Of a stretch of 64,000 nt of DNA, positions 26,418-43,662 are shown in pieces. Each line of letters opens with the position of its first letter. Position 1 is the first letter of the stretch. The stretch comes from Streptomyces flaveolus (GTDB lineage: Bacteria > Actinomycetota > Actinomycetes > Streptomycetales > Streptomycetaceae), in NCBI RefSeq assembly GCF_000716535.1, contig NZ_JNWV01000018.1:1-64000 (forward strand), given 5' to 3'. The position numbers and the translations under genes were made by a program. Under the pieces are notes generated by a model that made no database searches, was not told where the DNA came from, and saw nothing but the letters and a program-made list of their open reading frames with translations.

Positions 26418-27620
26418 TCACCGGTACCACCCGAACCGTTCCGCGATCTCCGGCAACCGGTCGGCCACCAGGGCGTGCGCGGCCACGCGCGGGGTCGTCC
26501 CGTCGGCCTCCGCACGGTCCAGCATCCGGCCGACCAGGGCGCGCATCGAGCGCCGGATGTGCCCGAACGCCTCGTCGGCGTCCGCGCCGATGTCACCGAA
26601 CAGGGTCCACCACCACCAGGCGTTCGTCGCGGAGTTGACCACCACGTCCGGCAGCACCGTCACCCCGCGCGCGGTCAGCAGCGCCTCCGCCTCGGGCACG
26701 ACGGGCATGTTGGCGGCTTCGACGATCCAACGCGCCCGGACCCGCCCCTGGTTCGCACCGTCGACGGCGTACGACACGGCGGCCGGCACCAGCACCTCCG
26801 CCTCCGCGGACAGCCAGGCGTCGCCGGGCAGTTCGCGGTCGCCGGGGCGCAACGCGCCGCGGTCCACGGTGCCGTAGCCGTCCCGCGCCGCCAGCAGCGT
26901 CTCGACGTCCAGCCCCGCCGGGTTGGCGATCGTGCCCTTGATGTCGGCGACGGCCACGACCGTCAGGCCCGCGCGGGCGAGGAAGCGCGCGGTGGCCCCG
27001 CCCATCGTGCCGAGACCCTGCACGGCGACCCGGGTGCCCGGATACGGCACCGCCGCCCGGTCCAGGGCCGTCAGCACCGACTCGGCGACCCCGCAGCCGC
27101 CCGCCAGCTCGTCCAGGCCGATGCCGTCCACCTCCACCGCGAAGGCGTCCGCGAGCCGCGCGCGGGCCGTCGCCTCGTCGTCCAGCAGCGGATACACCGC
27201 CTGGACCGAGGAGACCAGGCCCGCCTCGGCCGCCGCGCGGTCCACCAGGTCCTGGGTGAGGCCCAGATCCTCGCCGGTGGTCCAGCAGCTCTCGACGTAC
27301 GGCCGCATGGCGCGCAGGTACCGGACGAGGAGCCCGTACGCCTCCGGGTCCCGGGGATCGCAGTCGATGCCGCCCTTGGCACCGCCCAGCGGGACGTAGC
27401 GGCCCTCGGGGTCGTAGTGCAGGGCCTCCTTCATCGTCATGCCGCGGGCGAGCCCCGTCACCTCCTCCAGCGTGCAGCCGGGCCGCATCCGCAGCCCGCC
27501 GCTCGCCACGCCCCGCACCAGCCGGTCCACGACCAGGAAGCCCTGGCGGCCGGTGACGTGATCGATCCACACGAGCGACAGCAGAGGGGTGGTCACGGGG
27601 GTGGCCATGGGGGTGGTCAT
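26418..27620 (-). CDS. Glu/Leu/Phe/Val dehydrogenase family protein
   Basis: A 400-residue amino-acid dehydrogenase. The substrate domain carries MTMK64 and the catalytic lysine K82 in LGGAKGGIDCDP. The Rossmann domain has VQGLGTMGGATARFLARAG. The C-terminal NSATNAWWWWTLFGD replaces the hexamerisation tail of classical GDH. The enzyme would oxidatively deaminate an amino acid with NAD(P); specificity cannot be told from the motifs. ATG 27620 has GAGGAAGC upstream; an in-frame ATG at 27653 lies beyond that site. A well-formed promoter lies 48-77 bases upstream. Confidence 0.87.
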   Translation of the reverse strand: MTTPMATPVTTPLLSLVWIDHVTGRQGFLVVDRLVRGVASGGLRMRPGCTLEEVTGLARGMTMKEALHYDPEGRYVPLGGAKGGIDCDPRDPEAYGLLVRYLRAMRPYVESCWTTGEDLGLTQDLVDRAAAEAGLVSSVQAVYPLLDDEATARARLADAFAVEVDGIGLDELAGGCGVAESVLTALDRAAVPYPGTRVAVQGLGTMGGATARFLARAGLTVVAVADIKGTIANPAGLDVETLLAARDGYGTVDRGALRPGDRELPGDAWLSAEAEVLVPAAVSYAVDGANQGRVRARWIVEAANMPVVPEAEALLTARGVTVLPDVVVNSATNAWWWWTLFGDIGADADEAFGHIRRSMRALVGRMLDRAEADGTTPRVAAHALVADRLPEIAERFGWYR

Positions 27621-27643
27621 GGGGCTTCCTCGGGGGAGCGATG

Positions 27644-33896: not shown

Positions 33897-34478
33897 GGGA
33901 CAGCCTCCCCTCCGTGCCGGGGGAAAGAAACGGGTTACGGGCCGACCGATCGGGCCACCGTACACCTACGCAGCACACGTACTACGTACACCAGTCTCCG
34001 CTCCGGCCCTGTCCCGGTCAAGGCCAAAGCGAACACGTTGAGTGATGATGCCTCGGCAGACACCGCTGCGCGGCGGAACCCTGAGGGAGCGCCACGGAGG
34101 CGGCGCGGGGAGCGCCTGCCGCGCGCGCGTGCGCCGCACGGAGGAGGGACGGTGGTGTGGGCGATCAGTCGACTGTTCCGTTCCTGACCGCTTGTGACCA
34201 GGTCGGATCGCTCCTGACTCGGATCGGTCCGGTGCCGAGCGGCGGTCACCGGACTTTCGTACGACGCCTCATACCAGAGCGGGACGATGCTCGGGTGACT
34301 TTGTCAACTGCCCACCGCACATGATGCTCAGGCAACTACTGTGAGTGTCCGCCGGGCGACGCGCGGCCGGGTGCACCGGTCCGCCGGCCGGCAGCGATGA
34401 CGCATGCCCGCATCGACGCATGCCAGCACCGCGCACCGCACGAGGACACAGGCCCGACGGACCAGTACGAGGACGCAG

Positions 34479-36932
34479 ATGTCTCACCTCCGAGCACCGG
34501 CCGCCCGCGCCGATCGCCGCGAGGGCGGCCGGCACGGGCGACCGGTCGCCCGACCCGCTCCCGCACTGCCCGAAACGTACATACGGCCCCAGTTGATGCG
34601 GCTCGCCGTCCTGCCGCCCCTCGCGGTCGCGCTCAGCGCCACCGCCGCGGTGCTGTTCAGCATCCGTTCCACCGGCGCACGCACCGGCCCCCTCCTGTGG
34701 GCCGTGCTCGCCGGGGCGGTCACCGTGGCCGTCGCCGGCATCCTGATCGCCGCCGTGGCCGCCGACCGCGCCGCCCGCTCGGTCACCGACCGCGTCGACG
34801 CGCTGCGCCGCACCGCCGCGCGCGGCGAGGCCGACCTGCACGCCCTGGTCGACGCGCTCCGGCAGGGCGAGACGCCGCCGCAGCGCGGCCCGCGCCGCCG
34901 GCCGCCCGCCGACGCCGACGACTTCGAACTGCTCGCCGCCGATCTGGCGCGCGCGTACGACGGCGCCGTCACCGCCGTCGTCCGGGCCGCCCAGCTCTCC
35001 AGCCAGACCGGCAGCCAGCAGAAGCTGGAGGTGTTCGTCAACCTCGCGCGGCGGCTCCAGTCCCTGGTGCACCGGGAGATCTCGATCCTGGACGACCTGG
35101 AGAACGAGATCGAGGACCCCGATCTGCTCAAGGGGCTCTTCCACGTCGACCACCTGGCCACCCGCATCCGCCGGCACGCCGAGAACCTCGCCGTGCTCGG
35201 CGGCGCGGTCTCCCGCCGGCAGTGGAGCAACCCCGTCAGCATGACCGAGGTGCTGCGCTCCGCCATCGCCGAGGTCGAGCAGTACTCCCGGGTCAGACTG
35301 GTGCCGCCCATCGACGGCGAACTGCGCGGCCACGCCGTCGCCGACGTCATCCACCTGCTCGCCGAACTCATCGAGAACGCCACGGTGTTCTCCGCCCCGC
35401 ACACCCAGGTGCTGCTCCGCGCCAACCTCGTCACCTCCGGCCTCGCCGTGGAGGTCGAGGACCGCGGGCTGGGCATGCCCGTCGCCGAGCAGGAGCGGAT
35501 GAACGCCGTGCTCGCCGACCCCGACCAGGTCAACGTCGCCAGCCTGCTGGCCGACGGCCGTATCGGGCTCTACGTCGTCTCCCAGCTCGCCCGGCGGCAC
35601 AGCATCCACGTGCGGCTGCAGACCAACATCTACGGCGGGGTGCAGGCCGTCCTGGTCGTGCCGCAGGCCCTGCTGGGCAACGCGCCGGGAGTGCCGGGCA
35701 CGGACGCCGGGACAGCCGTACCGCAGCTCGCCGGGACAGCCGTACCGCAGCCGCAGCCGCAGATGCCGGGGGAGGCCGGGGCGTCGCAGGAGGTGCCGGT
35801 GGCGGCACCCGTACCCGCGCCCGGTGCCGGGAACGGTGCCGGAGCGGGGAGTGCCGCCGGAGGCGGGCGCGGCTCCAGGCCGGGCAGCGGGGACCGGGCC
35901 GGTGATGCGGCCGAGTCCGGGACGGGCGGCGGGCAGACCGCGGCCACCGGCCGGCGACGGCACGCCCAGCGGGGACCGGGACGGCGTGCGACCGAGAGCG
36001 GTACGCGCGGCCGGGACGGCGGTGCCCCGGCCCCGCTTCCCGTGCGCGGCGCCCAAGAGGCACGGCCCACACCCGCCGAGGCCGTGCCCGGCATCAGCGC
36101 CGGGGACCGGGCGGCGGTGGATGCGCACACGGGCGTCCTGCCCACCCCGCGCGTCGGCCCGGTCCGCGGCACCATGGACAAGCCCCAACTGCCCCGTCGG
36201 CGTGCCCAGGAGCACATCGTGCCCCAGCTGCGCGGCGGCCCGCTGCCCCGCCAGGAGAGCGACACCGTCGCCGGCCATGACCCCGGACTGATGGCCGCCT
36301 TCCAGCGCGGCATCGGACTCGCGGAGGCCCAGCAGAGCCTGGAGTCCGAGCATGAGGAGCCGGAGTTCCGGGCGCCGGAGCCCCGGGGGGCCGAGTTCCG
36401 ACAGCCTGGGTTCCAGGCGCCTGGGTTCCGTGAGCCGGGGTTCCGGGAGCCGGAGTACGAGAACACGGCGTACGGGCACATGGGTTCGGGCCACATGGAT
36501 GCCGGGCACAGCGCAGGCGCGCACCTGGCGGCGTCCGAGCCGGGATCGGCCGAGCCGACGCGCGCCCGTCCCGAGCACGGCGGCCCGGACCACATGGGGT
36601 CACAGCACACGGGTCAGGAGCACGCGGACCAGAAGCACATGGGGCCGGACCACACGGGTGCGGACCACATGGGGCCGGACCACGCGGCCCAGGGCTACAC
36701 GGGTGCGCACCACATGGGGCCGGGCCACACGTCCACAGGCCACATGTCCCCAGACCACACGCCGGCAGGCCACACAGCCGAGCCCCCCACCACCTCGGAC
36801 CGCACCACCCCCCGCCACTCCGCCCAGGACACCCTGCCCCCGGCCCCGATACCCCAGGCGCACGCCCACGCGCCCGCAGCCGACGGCGTTCGCGGAACAG
36901 GCCGGTCCGAGGGGAGCGCCCCGGCCGGATGA
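34479..36932 (+). CDS. cvnA: Conservon sensor histidine-kinase-like protein CvnA with His-rich tail
   Basis: An 817-residue membrane protein. Two N-terminal helices (about 42-62 and 71-94) with almost no external loop precede a dimerisation region and a HATPase_c domain. Its N box is ELIENATVF (296-304) and the G box RGLGMPVAEQE. There is no conventional phospho-acceptor His motif. After about residue 410 the chain is low-complexity (Pro/Gly/Ala/Arg). It ends in a histidine-rich stretch (667-769) with His at nearly every fifth residue. ATG 34479 follows GAGGAC. CvnA, B, C and D form a membrane GTPase-signalling complex in Streptomyces. Confidence 0.88.
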   Translation: MSHLRAPAARADRREGGRHGRPVARPAPALPETYIRPQLMRLAVLPPLAVALSATAAVLFSIRSTGARTGPLLWAVLAGAVTVAVAGILIAAVAADRAARSVTDRVDALRRTAARGEADLHALVDALRQGETPPQRGPRRRPPADADDFELLAADLARAYDGAVTAVVRAAQLSSQTGSQQKLEVFVNLARRLQSLVHREISILDDLENEIEDPDLLKGLFHVDHLATRIRRHAENLAVLGGAVSRRQWSNPVSMTEVLRSAIAEVEQYSRVRLVPPIDGELRGHAVADVIHLLAELIENATVFSAPHTQVLLRANLVTSGLAVEVEDRGLGMPVAEQERMNAVLADPDQVNVASLLADGRIGLYVVSQLARRHSIHVRLQTNIYGGVQAVLVVPQALLGNAPGVPGTDAGTAVPQLAGTAVPQPQPQMPGEAGASQEVPVAAPVPAPGAGNGAGAGSAAGGGRGSRPGSGDRAGDAAESGTGGGQTAATGRRRHAQRGPGRRATESGTRGRDGGAPAPLPVRGAQEARPTPAEAVPGISAGDRAAVDAHTGVLPTPRVGPVRGTMDKPQLPRRRAQEHIVPQLRGGPLPRQESDTVAGHDPGLMAAFQRGIGLAEAQQSLESEHEEPEFRAPEPRGAEFRQPGFQAPGFREPGFREPEYENTAYGHMGSGHMDAGHSAGAHLAASEPGSAEPTRARPEHGGPDHMGSQHTGQEHADQKHMGPDHTGADHMGPDHAAQGYTGAHHMGPGHTSTGHMSPDHTPAGHTAEPPTTSDRTTPRHSAQDTLPPAPIPQAHAHAPAADGVRGTGRSEGSAPAG
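36576..36785 (+). repeat. Fourteen 15-bp units encoding histidine pentapeptides in cvnA
   Basis: The DNA encodes HGGPD HMGSQ HTGQE HADQK, then HMGPD HTGAD HMGPD HAAQG, then YTGAH HMGPG HTSTG HMSPD and finally HTPAG HTAEP (residues 700-769). Thirteen of fourteen units begin with His. Four further units (HMGSG HMDAG HSAGA HLAAS) stand at residues 667-686. The similar codons point to expansion of a 15-bp unit. Confidence 0.9.
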
Positions 36933-37021
36933 CCGCCCCCGCACCCGCACCCGCACGTCGTACCCCCACCCCCACCCCCAGCGCTCCCGCTGGTCTTCGT
37001 ACCCCAAGGAGTCGATCCACC

Positions 37022-37456
37022 ATGGCGAGCGATGCGCCGACCGCCCACGCATCCGACCTCGACTGGCTGCTGAGCGGCCTCGTGCAGCGCGTACCGCACA
37101 CCACCAGCGCGGTGCTCCTGTCCAGCGACGGACTGGTGAAGTCCGTGCACGGCCTGGACGCCGACAGCGCCGACCACATGGCGGCCCTGGCCTCCGGGCT
37201 GTACTCCCTCGGCCGCAGCGCGGGGGTCCGGTTCGGCGACGGCGGGGACGTCCGCCAGGTCGTCGTCGAACTCGACGCGACCCTGCTGTTCGTCACCACC
37301 GCCGGCTCCGGCACCTGCCTCGCCGTGCTGGCGGGCCGCGAGGCCGACGCCGCGGTGCTCGGTTACGAGATGGCGATGCTGGTCAAGAGCGTCCGTCCCT
37401 ACCTGGTCACCGCGCCCCGGCAGCACGCCGTCGGACCCACGGCGACGAGGCCCTGA
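37022..37456 (+). CDS. cvnB: Roadblock/LC7-domain conservon protein CvnB
   Basis: A 144-residue roadblock fold protein (LDWLLSGLVQRVPHTTSAVLLSSDGLVKS at the N-terminus). In conservons CvnB pairs with the GTPase CvnD, probably as a GTPase-activating or scaffold partner (family knowledge). ATG 37022 has AAGGAG nine bases upstream. An in-frame ATG at 36929 overlaps the cvnA stop but adds a Pro/Thr-rich, unlikely extension. cvnC starts two bases after its stop. Confidence 0.92.
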   Translation: MASDAPTAHASDLDWLLSGLVQRVPHTTSAVLLSSDGLVKSVHGLDADSADHMAALASGLYSLGRSAGVRFGDGGDVRQVVVELDATLLFVTTAGSGTCLAVLAGREADAAVLGYEMAMLVKSVRPYLVTAPRQHAVGPTATRP

Positions 37457-37458
37457 GC

Positions 37459-37830
37459 GTGGCCGCAGCCGGCGACGGGCCCTGGCTGGACGACGCGGCC
37501 GGACGGCTCGTGCGGCCGTTCACGGTCAGCAACGGCCGCACCGAACCCAGCATCGCCCTCGACCTGATGTCGCAGGTGATGGCCACCGGCGTCACCCCGC
37601 TCGGCTACCTCGGCCCCGAACACGCGCAGGCGCTCGACCTGTGCCGCGCGCCCGTCTCGGTCGCCGAGGTCGCCGCCCAGCTGAAACTGCCCGCCGTGGT
37701 CACCAAGGTGCTGCTCTCGGACCTGGTCGACTGCGGCGCGCTGACCACCAAGCCGCCCGTCTACCACCACACTCCCACTGACCGGTCTCTGCTGGAGGCA
37801 GTGCTCGATGGACTACGACGACAGCTCTGA
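37459..37830 (+). CDS. cvnC: DUF742 conservon protein CvnC
   Basis: A 123-residue winged-helix-like DUF742 protein: RLVRPFTVSNGRTEP at the front and the helix-rich LCRAPVSVAEVAAQLKLPAVVTKVLLSDL in the middle. It is the third member of the cvnABCD order. GTG 37459 follows GACGAGG. The 3' end overlaps cvnD by 23 bases in another frame. Its biochemical role is unknown; interaction with the other Cvn proteins is expected from conservon studies. Confidence 0.92.
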   Translation: MAAAGDGPWLDDAAGRLVRPFTVSNGRTEPSIALDLMSQVMATGVTPLGYLGPEHAQALDLCRAPVSVAEVAAQLKLPAVVTKVLLSDLVDCGALTTKPPVYHHTPTDRSLLEAVLDGLRRQL

Positions 37831-38407
37831 CCCGTTCCCGACCGCGCTCAAGATCCTGGTGGCGGGCGGGTTCGGCGTCGGCAAGACCACCTTCGTGGGC
37901 GCGGTCAGCGAGATCGCCCCGCTCAGCACGGAGGAGCTGCTCACCACGGTCAGTGTCGGCACGGACAGTCTCGACGGCGTCGAGAACAAGATGGAGACCA
38001 CCGTCGCCATGGACTTCGGCCGGATCACCCTCGATCCGCACCATGTGCTGTACCTGTTCGGCACGCCGGGGCAGGAGCGGTTCTGGTTCATGTGGGACGA
38101 GCTGTCCGAGGGCGCGCTCGGCGCGGTCATCCTCGCCGACACCCGGCGGCTGCAGGACTGCTTCGCCGCCGTGGACTTCTTCGAGGAACGCGGGCTCGCC
38201 TTCATCGTCGCCCTCAACGAGTTCGACGGCGCCCACCGCTACGACCCCGAGGAAGTGCGGGCCGCCATAGACCTCGACCCGGAGGTCCCGGTGGTCCGCT
38301 GCGACGCCCGTATCTCCAGCTCCGGCGTCCAGACACTGCTCGTCCTCGTCCGCCACCTCCTCGCCCACGCCCCGGCCACCGCGCCCAGCCACGGCGCCCA
38401 CATGTGA
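37808..38407 (+). CDS. cvnD: Small Ras-like GTPase CvnD
   Basis: A 199-residue G protein of the MglA/Cvn type. G1 is GGFGVGKTT (residues 20-28) and G3 is FGTPGQERF, with Pro in place of the Ala of Ras-type DTAGQ. The base-recognition motif is the weak LNEFDG instead of NKxD, common in CvnD. A TTV-rich switch region (TTVAMDFGRI) lies between. It acts with CvnA-C at the membrane. Start ATG 37808 lies inside cvnC. Confidence 0.93.
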   Translation: MDYDDSSDPFPTALKILVAGGFGVGKTTFVGAVSEIAPLSTEELLTTVSVGTDSLDGVENKMETTVAMDFGRITLDPHHVLYLFGTPGQERFWFMWDELSEGALGAVILADTRRLQDCFAAVDFFEERGLAFIVALNEFDGAHRYDPEEVRAAIDLDPEVPVVRCDARISSSGVQTLLVLVRHLLAHAPATAPSHGAHM

Positions 38408-38468: not shown

Positions 38469-39044
38469 ATGAGCTACGAGCCGCCCCGGCCGGTCCGGGG
38501 TCTGCTGCTCACCCCCGAGGACAAGGAGGCCCCCGCCCGTGTCCACCGGTTGCGCCGGCTCGGCCTGGCGGACCGGCCCGACCCCGCGCTCGACGCCTTC
38601 GCCGGCCACCTCGCGCAGCTCACCGGCGCGCTCTACGCCATGGTCAACTTCATCGGCGAGGACCACCAGTTCTTCGCGGGCCTGAGCGCCCCGGCCATCT
38701 CGCCGGTCGTGCGGGACGACGGCACCAGGGCCGGGATCGGCCGGGTGCTGCCACGCGACCACGGTTTCTGCCCCCATGTGGTGGTCCGCCGCAAGGCACT
38801 CGTCCTGGAGGACGTCAGCGACTACCCACGGTTCGCGTGCAATCCGGTCGTCGACGGGTACGGCATCCGCTCCTACCTCGGCGCCCCGCTCATCGACAGC
38901 TCCGGCATGGCGCTCGGCACTGTGTGCGCGGCCGACACGGCGCCCCGCGCCTGGGGCAGACCCGGCCTGGAAACCATCAAGGCGCTCGCCGCCGATCTCG
39001 TCGTACGCCTCGAACGGAGTACGGGGGACGGTCTGCCTCTCTGA
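38469..39044 (+). CDS. GAF-domain protein of the conservon operon
   Basis: A 191-residue single GAF domain. MVNFIGEDHQFFAGL, the H-x-F-C-x-H segment DHGFCPHVVVRR and the closing YLGAPLIDSSGMALGTVCAAD are typical of free-standing GAF sensors. It follows cvnD by 61 bases on the same strand, and a terminator directly follows its stop, so it is the last gene of the conservon transcript. Ligand unknown. The C/H pair could bind a metal or haem, but that is speculation. Confidence 0.85.
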   Translation: MSYEPPRPVRGLLLTPEDKEAPARVHRLRRLGLADRPDPALDAFAGHLAQLTGALYAMVNFIGEDHQFFAGLSAPAISPVVRDDGTRAGIGRVLPRDHGFCPHVVVRRKALVLEDVSDYPRFACNPVVDGYGIRSYLGAPLIDSSGMALGTVCAADTAPRAWGRPGLETIKALAADLVVRLERSTGDGLPL

Positions 39045-42488: not shown

Positions 42489-43055
42489 ATGAGAAACGAG
42501 GACGCGGTCGATCTCCTCATCGGCGCCCGGCTCGCCGAACTGCGCGCCCAGCACGGCTGGTCCCTCGGTGAACTGGCGGAGCGCAGCGGAGTCAGCCGGT
42601 CCACCCTGTCCCGCGCCGAACGCGCGGAGACCAGCCCCACCGCCGCCCTCCTGAACCGGCTCTGCCACGTGTACGGCCGCACCATGTCCCAGCTCCTCAG
42701 AGAGGTGGAGGCGGCACCGGCGCCCCTGGTCCGCGCCGCCGACCAGCAGGTGTGGGAGGACCGCGCCTCGGGTTTCGCCCGCCGGTCCGTGTCCCCGCCG
42801 CACACCGGACTGCGCGGCGAGCTGGTCGAGGGCCGGCTCACCCCGGGCGCGGACATCGCCTACGACCGCCCGCCCGTGCCGGGCCTGGAACAGCATCTGT
42901 GGCTGCTTAAGGGAGCCCTGGAGGTCACCGTCGGGGACCAGGCCCACCGGCTCGACGCGGGGGACTGCCTGCGGATGCGGGTGACCGGCGCGACCCGCTT
43001 CCGCTGTGCCGGGGCGGGGGAGGCGCGGTACGTGCTGGCGGTGGTGCGGCCATGA
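42489..43055 (+). CDS. XRE-family regulator with cupin domain
   Basis: A 188-residue protein: helix-turn-helix (LAELRAQHGWSLGELAERSG, then SRSTLSRAERAETSP) and a C-terminal cupin (LEQHLWLLKGALEVTVGD, RLDAGDCLRMRV). It is a second architecture of this kind in the window, though not closely similar to the protein at 18251. It has almost no untranslated leader. It overlaps the GNAT gene as ATGA, so regulator and acetyltransferase are one unit. Confidence 0.88.
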   Translation: MRNEDAVDLLIGARLAELRAQHGWSLGELAERSGVSRSTLSRAERAETSPTAALLNRLCHVYGRTMSQLLREVEAAPAPLVRAADQQVWEDRASGFARRSVSPPHTGLRGELVEGRLTPGADIAYDRPPVPGLEQHLWLLKGALEVTVGDQAHRLDAGDCLRMRVTGATRFRCAGAGEARYVLAVVRP

Positions 43056-43597
43056 GGCCTCGCGAGGACGCGGCGACGAGGGTGGAGCGCTGGGACGGCG
43101 CCCAAGTGTGCGACCGTGCCGACGACTTGGCTGCGCTGCTGACCGACACCGTGGCCTCGGGCGCCTCCGTCGGTTTCCTCGCTCCGCTCGGCCACGCGGC
43201 GGCGGTCGCCTGGTGGCGGCAGCGGGCGGAGGCCGCGGCGGCGGGCCTGCTCGCCGTCTGGGCGGCCCTGGACCGGGCGGACCGTGTGACCGGCACGGTC
43301 GGCCTGGCCTACCCCGACAAACCGAACAGCCGGCACCGCGCCGAGCTGGTCAAGCTGATGGTGCACCGCTCCGCGCGCGGACAGGGTCTCGGCCGCAGGC
43401 TCCTCACCACCGCCGAACAGGCGGCCGTGGCCGACGGCCGCACCCTGCTCCATCTCGACACCGAGACGGGCAGCCCCGCCGAGCACCTGTACCGCTCGGC
43501 CGGCTGGACCAGGGCCGGGACCATCCCCGACTACGCGGCGAGCCCGGCGGGCCTGTTGCGGCCGACGACGCTGTACTACAAGCGGCTCGCGGGGTGA
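43052..43597 (+). CDS. GNAT-family N-acetyltransferase
   Basis: A 181-residue acetyl-CoA-dependent acetyltransferase. Motif A, with the pyrophosphate loop, is LVKLMVHRSARGQGLGRRLL (R-x-x-G-x-G type). LYRSAGWTRAGTIPDY is the motif B region. The substrate could be a small molecule or protein N-terminus. ATG 43052 overlaps the XRE-cupin stop, so the regulator probably controls it. Confidence 0.88.
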   Translation: MRPREDAATRVERWDGAQVCDRADDLAALLTDTVASGASVGFLAPLGHAAAVAWWRQRAEAAAAGLLAVWAALDRADRVTGTVGLAYPDKPNSRHRAELVKLMVHRSARGQGLGRRLLTTAEQAAVADGRTLLHLDTETGSPAEHLYRSAGWTRAGTIPDYAASPAGLLRPTTLYYKRLAG

Positions 43598-43662
43598 CGG
43601 CTCGGAGGATGACGGCCGGCGGGTGACGGTCCGGAGGGTGACTGTCAGTGGCAGGAGCTACC

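Follow-up and report, generated by a model that had tools for sequence, protein, structure and literature searches.

Conservon systems, a form of G-protein signalling in bacteria, are widespread but still poorly understood. In Streptomyces coelicolor, according to the accessible text of PMC8510531, the kinases CvnA1 to CvnA6 carry NIT domains and CvnA7 to CvnA13 are devoid of external domains, and a GAF gene is found only in cvn7 and cvn8. CvnA7 corresponds to SCO6794 (accessible text of PMC9739842). Accessory genes accompany the CvnA proteins that have no sensory domains, and CvnF8 was found to form a complex with CvnA8 and to stimulate its ATPase and autophosphorylation, as described in the accessible text of PMC13343842, whose authors also modelled CvnF7 on CvnA7. 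Deletion of cvn7 in S. coelicolor caused no obvious change during interspecies interactions (accessible text of PMC8510531). A term look-up in the accessible text of PMC13343842 and PMC8510531 returned no mention of a repeat tail of CvnA, and no description of such a tail on a CvnA7-type kinase was found in open-access main texts. Similarly, we found no open-access paper in which His-rich pentapeptide repeats or Streptomyces 15-bp tandem repeats are linked to a histidine kinase.

Coding minisatellites, or variable-number tandem repeats, are a known class in bacterial proteins. As for His-containing tracts, squid beak proteins (HBPs) harbour tandem GHGxY pentads that act as a His-based pH switch for phase separation, a process that requires Tyr and was abolished by Tyr to Ala replacement (accessible text of PMC6884462). 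In bacteria, 82 His-rich tracts of cobalamin-biosynthesis proteins contain 53% His, 23% Asp and 9% Glu, for a mean length of 36 residues (accessible text of PMC6821194). Here we describe an array of His-containing pentapeptides in the tail of a cvn7-type kinase of Streptomyces flaveolus, identified in the window, i.e. the whole 64,000-nucleotide stretch of DNA analysed.

Materials and methods

The tails of the 120 relatives listed among 6367 in a protein search were read, and the exact AAFQRG anchor is present in 110 of these 120. A genome scan provided the best 80 of 407 loci, to which 60 regions from genus genomes were added. Once rows that were incomplete, out of frame or duplicated had been removed, the set comprised 124 distinct tails. 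Eleven of the 81 sequences of the first set were removed, either because they were open at a contig end (L003, L040, L053, L060, L070 and L080) or because they were out of frame or had no anchor (L006, L012, L059, L066 and L074); the regions removed from the additional 60 were L141, in which the core was missing, L127, in which the anchor was missing, and four duplicates. The presence of an AAFQRG-type anchor in all 124 tails follows from the fact that the tails were chosen by that anchor. An in-phase His is a His with another His five residues before or after it. For the comparison of tail turnover, proteins were paired when the final 300 residues of their cores were 98% identical or more, and both anchors are present in 110 of 122 proteins.

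Results

A cvn7-type operon

The coordinates of the operon and of the features of its kinase are collected in Table 1. The cvnA start at 34479 is supported by the invariance of M1 and S2 in a 41-row alignment; an alternative in-frame ATG is located upstream at 34404. We call the locus cvn7-type, a putative assignment based on its GAF gene and on the tdh/kbl neighbourhood of cvn7 in S. coelicolor.

Table 1. Features of the cvnA locus in the window.
Feature	Position	Strand	Remarks
cvnA (CvnA7-type conservon histidine kinase), 817 aa	34479..36932	+	87-99% identity over residues 1-420 to the 120 relatives listed of 6367
N-terminal pair of long helices (residues 35-65 and 71-128), ~5-residue loop between	34581..34862	+	AlphaFold2, block pLDDT 58-78
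HATPase_c domain, residues 289-396	35343..35666	+	PF02518, E 4.6e-08, above cut-off
Conserved helix around AAFQRGIGLAEAQQ (AAFQRG...), residues 602-623	36282..36347	+	predicted helix
Phe/Tyr pentads (FRxPG-like)	36356..36473	+	15-bp phase is that of the long His array; Tandem Repeats Finder
Short His array, four pentads, residues 667-686	36477..36536	+	two residues out of phase with the long run
Main His array, 14 pentads, residues 700-769	36576..36785	+	13 His, 1 Tyr
Last cvnA codons	36909..36932	+	EGSAPAG-stop in the window; DGSxxAG in 89/124 tails
cvnB (roadblock/LC7)	37022..37456	+	PF03259, E 3.1e-24; ATG 37022 preceded by AAGGAG
cvnC (DUF742)	37471..37830, exact start not settled	+	PF05331, E 1.7e-36
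cvnD (small GTPase)	37808..38407	+	PF03029, E 1.3e-32
cvnF, stand-alone GAF protein after cvnD	38469..39044	+	PF01590, E 2.3e-14

This CvnA is predicted to have no external sensor domain, given the very short loop between its N-terminal helices in a weak AlphaFold2 model (mean pLDDT 47). An earlier note on this DNA had attributed this property to conservon kinases in general, which fits the present protein and CvnA7 to CvnA13 but not CvnA1 to CvnA6 with their NIT domains (accessible text of PMC8510531). In the same model, the tail is predicted to be disordered, with pLDDT values of 28-40 in nearly all blocks, the conserved helix excepted.

The cvnF gene lies 3' of cvnA at 72 of 80 loci, and the eight misses are loci of 7.2-8.2 kb cut by a contig end, so that it is present at all 72 informative loci. 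A relative of CvnF (E up to 1e-40) occurs in 255 of 295 genus genomes. As the operon carries CvnF, whose relative CvnF8 activates CvnA8, this protein is a better candidate than the repeat tail for the 'missing input', and by analogy it would most likely be the input of this kinase. A Pfam scan of ten neighbouring open reading frames matched eight, a zinc carboxypeptidase among them, and revealed no metal-homeostasis family among those eight, which counts against a role of the tail in metal sensing.

A His pentapeptide array in the CvnA tail

Reading the sequence from the start at 34479 reproduces exactly the 14 pentads, 13 of them starting with His, that the earlier note had placed at residues 700-769, and the four additional pentads it reported at residues 667-686 are present as well. 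The successive units of the long run are HGGPD, HMGSQ, HTGQE, HADQK, HMGPD, HTGAD, HMGPD, HAAQG, YTGAH, HMGPG, HTSTG, HMSPD, HTPAG and HTAEP, and those of the short run are HMGSG, HMDAG, HSAGA and HLAAS. Tandem Repeats Finder delimits period-15 arrays at 36356-36456 (6.7 copies), 36473-36510, 36604-36704 and 36723-36775. The 212-residue tail (606-817) contains 17 in-phase His residues and 14 His-x4-His pairs, versus a mean of 2.1 (s.d. 1.3, maximum 9) in 20,000 shuffles. No Pfam family matches the tail at E up to 1, including the profile of the pentapeptide-repeat family, PF00805. A PDB sequence search with the array yielded no match, which counts against a metal-responsive tail. The array comprises 17% His and 12% Asp plus Glu over 103 residues; this His density, compared with 53% in published His-rich tracts (accessible text of PMC6821194), also argues against that proposal.

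Other features would rather suit a tail responsive to pH or prone to self-association. The pentad run opens further upstream with Phe/Tyr units in phase with the long His run, providing aromatic pentads next to the His units, and the net charge of the array, computed with assumed pKa values, including 6.5 for His, goes from +4.8 at pH 6 to -4.7 at pH 7, with zero near 6.5. However, HBPs need Tyr (accessible text of PMC6884462), while the long His array has a single Tyr in its 14 units and the four-unit run has none.

Distribution and composition of orthologous tails

Among the 124 tails, which range from 22 to 329 residues in length, the number of in-phase His residues varies between 0 and 32: 71 tails have at least three and 55 at least six, and 36 have none. 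The absence of in-phase His from 36 orthologues and the lack of conservation of unit number run against the idea, put forward in the earlier note, of a metal-responsive CvnA tail, and the many orthologues that have no array also count against a pH-driven role. The array is missing from the most divergent rows (L175, L177-L181, L183 and L184, with core identities of 61-74%), whose tails are 22-43 residues long. Short tails of 22-50 residues are found in several lineages, as might be expected of a neutral segment.

The consensus of the unit is His-[Met/Thr/Val]-[Asp/Gly/Glu]-[Ser/Pro/Ala]-[Ala/Gly/Pro/Asp]. The residue that follows the array His is Met in 0.35, Thr in 0.25 and Val in 0.08 of units. 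A Cu(I)-type Met motif was rejected as the main reading, since Met alternates freely with Thr and Val. Position 3 is often acidic (Asp 0.24, Glu 0.17), and the His and Met fractions are correlated across tails (rho 0.55); both observations are compatible with metal binding, but Cys is nearly absent, with four occurrences in 17,185 tail residues. The spacing of His is strikingly regular, another feature that metal binding might explain. In 70 tails, a His is present at i+5 in 356 of 639 cases, compared with 63 +/- 7 after shuffling; lags 10 and 15 are also strong, and every other lag between 1 and 14 is under the shuffled level. Of 1276 intervals between successive His residues, 578 measure five residues and 123 measure ten.

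Rapid turnover of the repeat

The protein P0001, the nearest among those listed, is 99% identical to the window CvnA over residues 1-420, yet its main array has 11 units versus 14 in the window. More generally, in the 128 overlapping pairs defined above the count of in-phase His differs in 96, tail length is equal in 18 and the tails are identical in six. On a kinase-core tree built by a quick method with a midpoint root, the state 'six or more' in-phase His undergoes 24 changes by parsimony, at least nine of which are forced by starred branches; the state is clustered on the tree nonetheless (0 of 500 shuffles as low). The range of unit numbers, the differences between close pairs and the number of changes all bear out the prediction of the earlier note that the 15-bp unit expands rapidly and varies.

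The gaps between the window sequence and L001 amount to 20, 20 and 10 codons. The accepted alignments of close pairs contain 121 gaps, 40 of which have a length divisible by five codons, modestly more than the expected fifth, and the remaining 81 indicate that clean whole-unit slippage is not the sole process or that the alignments are poor. Units that contain no His expand likewise, as exemplified by LTDMG in L030, YENPT in P0036 and MGRDD in P0009.

Is His itself under selection?

Between neighbouring units of 70 tails, His is retained with a frequency of 0.557, the highest among common residues, ahead of Met (0.398) and Asp (0.346). This retention would be in line with metal binding, and it does not favour a purely neutral array. 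Neither does codon usage: the array His codons of the 124 tails are CAC 732 times and CAT 91 times, and the use of both indicates that it is the amino acid, not one codon, that is kept.

Substitution patterns were compared in those 40 of 187 close pairs whose tail identity is at least 0.6; the pairs share sequences and are not independent. The omega-like value of His is 0.26 in arrays versus 1.82 in the linker, a difference that runs against neutrality but is partly inflated by in-phase misalignment; low values were also obtained for array Asp and Glu (0.41 and 0.34). Twelve other array residues, pooled, give 1.08, near neutrality, as a neutral segment would. In a bootstrap over the 40 pairs, with a local identity of at least 0.5, array His is better kept than linker His by 0.22-0.42. 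As in-phase misalignment pairs His with His, the low His value weakens on well-aligned codons: at a local identity of at least 0.75, His is kept at 0.779, little above Pro (0.767), Met (0.750) and Asp (0.734), and the pool of G, P, A, S, T, Q, L, R, V and M is kept at 0.663. Much of the His advantage therefore comes from in-phase misalignment, a point in favour of neutral drift. Where an aligned His differs, it is replaced by Arg 41 times, Pro 41 times and Tyr 15 times. This absence of aromatic preference led us to reject a reading of the units as aromatic 'stickers', and it also disfavours a condensate-forming tail.

The retention of His between units and above the level of linker His indicates that the array is not purely neutral, which counts against drift of a mere spacer. 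In addition, His turns up again in the loop of an MFS transporter, where units have expanded independently (see below), which suggests that something favours this residue. We conclude from these comparisons that the array favours His to a weak or moderate degree and that the remaining positions drift.

The array is flanked by a conserved helix and by frozen codons at the gene junction

The synonymous codons of the AAFQRG helix vary freely in the 124 tails, as exemplified by Arg (CGC 82, CGG 33, CGT 5, CGA 4). By this codon evidence, the helix is constrained as protein and appears to be where selection truly acts to preserve the tail. The end of the gene shows a different pattern. The codons GAC, GGG and AGC are each invariant in the 89 loci with a DGSxxAG ending, and 81 of these loci share GGA; the window, which is outside these 89, has GAG GGG AGC and GGA at the junction. 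At the junction of cvnA and cvnB (36909-36940), a candidate element acting as DNA or RNA probably holds these last codons. We discarded the possibility that DGSAPAG is a C-terminal peptide ligand, because the codons are frozen at synonymous sites, which points to a constraint on DNA or RNA.

The cvnA stop codon usually overlaps an ATG (at 36929 in the window, in frame with cvnB). The frame that starts from this ATG leads into cvnB at many loci, although not in L009, L010, L013 and L025, for example. Judging from the apparently kept AAGGAG...ATG arrangement, CvnB probably starts at 37022, and a longer form of the protein perhaps exists in some species.

Similar arrays elsewhere

The window genome has 11 kinase-core matches. 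Of the other ten, the analysis covered seven loci, in two of which the tail was readable; as neither of these two tails has a His-x4-His pair, we rejected the array as a conservon-wide feature. Using the array as a query, no second match was obtained in that genome below E 0.01, the next value being 0.028. Of 327 candidates in a database search with residues 660-775, eight proteins matched at E up to 0.001, and each of the eight has the HATPase domain PF02518. A synthetic pentad query found matches in 66 of 290 genus genomes at E up to 0.001; some of the strongest matches (in G274, G083, G145 and G096) are within ~2.6 kb upstream of cvnF, and thus in cvnA.

We also looked at seven regions that lie next to cvnA or away from it. 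In four of them (L187 and L189-L191) the repeat frames have an un-Streptomyces base composition, and in L188 the repeat is part of a coding-like frame of 845 aa. In one species, an unrelated MFS transporter encoded near cvn7 (region L192, i.e. L045 11509-11712, minus strand) has gained 11 similar units in a central loop, nine of them with His. A relative of this transporter in L072 (88% identity over 131 residues) does not have the His units, and the DNA of the transporter array has no clear similarity to that of cvnA. In another Streptomyces genome, a putative membrane protein with the pentad HMGLG is encoded near an ECF sigma factor gene (L193/L194; L194 3642-4469, minus strand). The presence of this His/Met pentad in a second protein might argue for metal binding, but the protein matches no Pfam or NCBIfam family. 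With arrays in the transporter and in the HMGLG protein, such expansions are not special to kinases.

Genome G110 has the closest CvnF outside the window genome (95%), but in its region L127 the frame of cvnA departs from the family sequence ahead of the AAFQRG helix, an ending that P0093 shares. An array match is found further on in L127, in an open frame of 713 codons, and this arrangement reflects either an assembly error or a real break. Two other repeats of the window were recorded. A 12-bp tandem repeat (27586-27624) is located at the predicted N-terminus of a minus-strand gene of the Glu/Leu/Phe/Val dehydrogenase family and encodes Met/Thr/Pro-rich residues; the true start of the dehydrogenase may be further in. 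Approximately four copies of a 15-bp unit (43583-43642) overlap the end of an acetyltransferase gene (43052-43597) and run on past it.

Discussion

Our preferred explanation, to which we assign a probability of roughly 0.6, is that the array is a slippage-driven 15-bp coding minisatellite that forms a disordered, tunable spacer under mild selection for His, with CvnF as the input of the kinase. Replication slippage would add and remove 15-bp units in the disordered C-terminal tail; as it works by units, the array would keep its phase of five residues even though species differ in its length and in the sequence of its units. The array might thereby constitute a soluble, flexible spacer of adjustable length after the AAFQRG helix, kept hydrophilic and weakly charged by selection that mildly prefers His and acidic residues. 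The signal would enter by docking of the GAF protein CvnF on the kinase and not via the array. The number of units changes quickly, often to none, which gives the array the look of a fast-evolving flexible spacer and not of a dedicated metal sensor.

It is tempting to speculate that the array is an evolvable rheostat, in which slippage alters the number of His units and thereby retunes, both within and between species, the response of this G-protein-coupled kinase to cytoplasmic pH or a divalent metal, in parallel with CvnF. If so, selection for such tuning would explain why His recurs in independent expansions and why it is preferentially retained from unit to unit. We consider this proposal unlikely. 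The other explanations all rank below the slippage-generated spacer. A purely neutral origin, with slippage acting on a loop that is free of constraint and serves no function, not even through its His residues, is equally unlikely: it would account for the near-neutral values of most array residues and for the small lead of His on well-aligned codons, but not for the retention of His between units. Still less probable is a tail in which protonation of His switches the net charge and self-association of the membrane kinase, for which squid HBPs set a precedent with their GHGxY switch (accessible text of PMC6884462), given the scarcity of Tyr. Least probable of all is a metal-responsive tail, proposed in the earlier note as a new input for Cvn signalling, in which spaced His residues, with Met or Asp, would bind cytoplasmic Zn, Ni or Cu and alter kinase activity or its coupling to the GTPase, in view of the modest His content, the limited frequency of Met after His, the absence of a metal-homeostasis family among the matched neighbours and the presence of CvnF in the operon.

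Fast turnover of a repeat on a kinase tail supplies natural length variants with which the function of the tail can be probed, and the variation of the tail shows that its really conserved part is the AAFQRG helix. If the number of His residues tunes responses, the array would represent a fast-evolving input module. If it does not, the array cautions against equating evenly spaced His residues with a metal sensor.

Among known systems, the operon of the window is most akin to cvn7, with a HATPase CvnA that has a tiny inter-helix loop, a roadblock CvnB, a DUF742 CvnC, a CvnD GTPase and a GAF protein CvnF. The tail differs between such loci, as that of S. violaceoruber L064 has just two in-phase His residues versus 17 in the window. 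The five-residue period is the only likeness to the pentapeptide-repeat proteins of PF00805, as the tail has no match to their profile and is predicted to be disordered. The His-rich tracts of cobalamin, Ni and Co proteins (accessible text of PMC6821194) are similar in that they are low-complexity segments of His and acidic residues in bacterial proteins, although the array does not share their His-dominated composition. Squid beak proteins resemble it by their disordered tandem pentads with Gly and one His per unit, but they form an extracellular material and their units contain the necessary Tyr (accessible text of PMC6884462), and we claim no homology. As for coding minisatellites of bacterial proteins, the array has in common with them a 15-bp unit in tandem whose copy number differs between close relatives, and it is set apart by its location on a cytoplasmic kinase tail and by the recurrent His at position 1.
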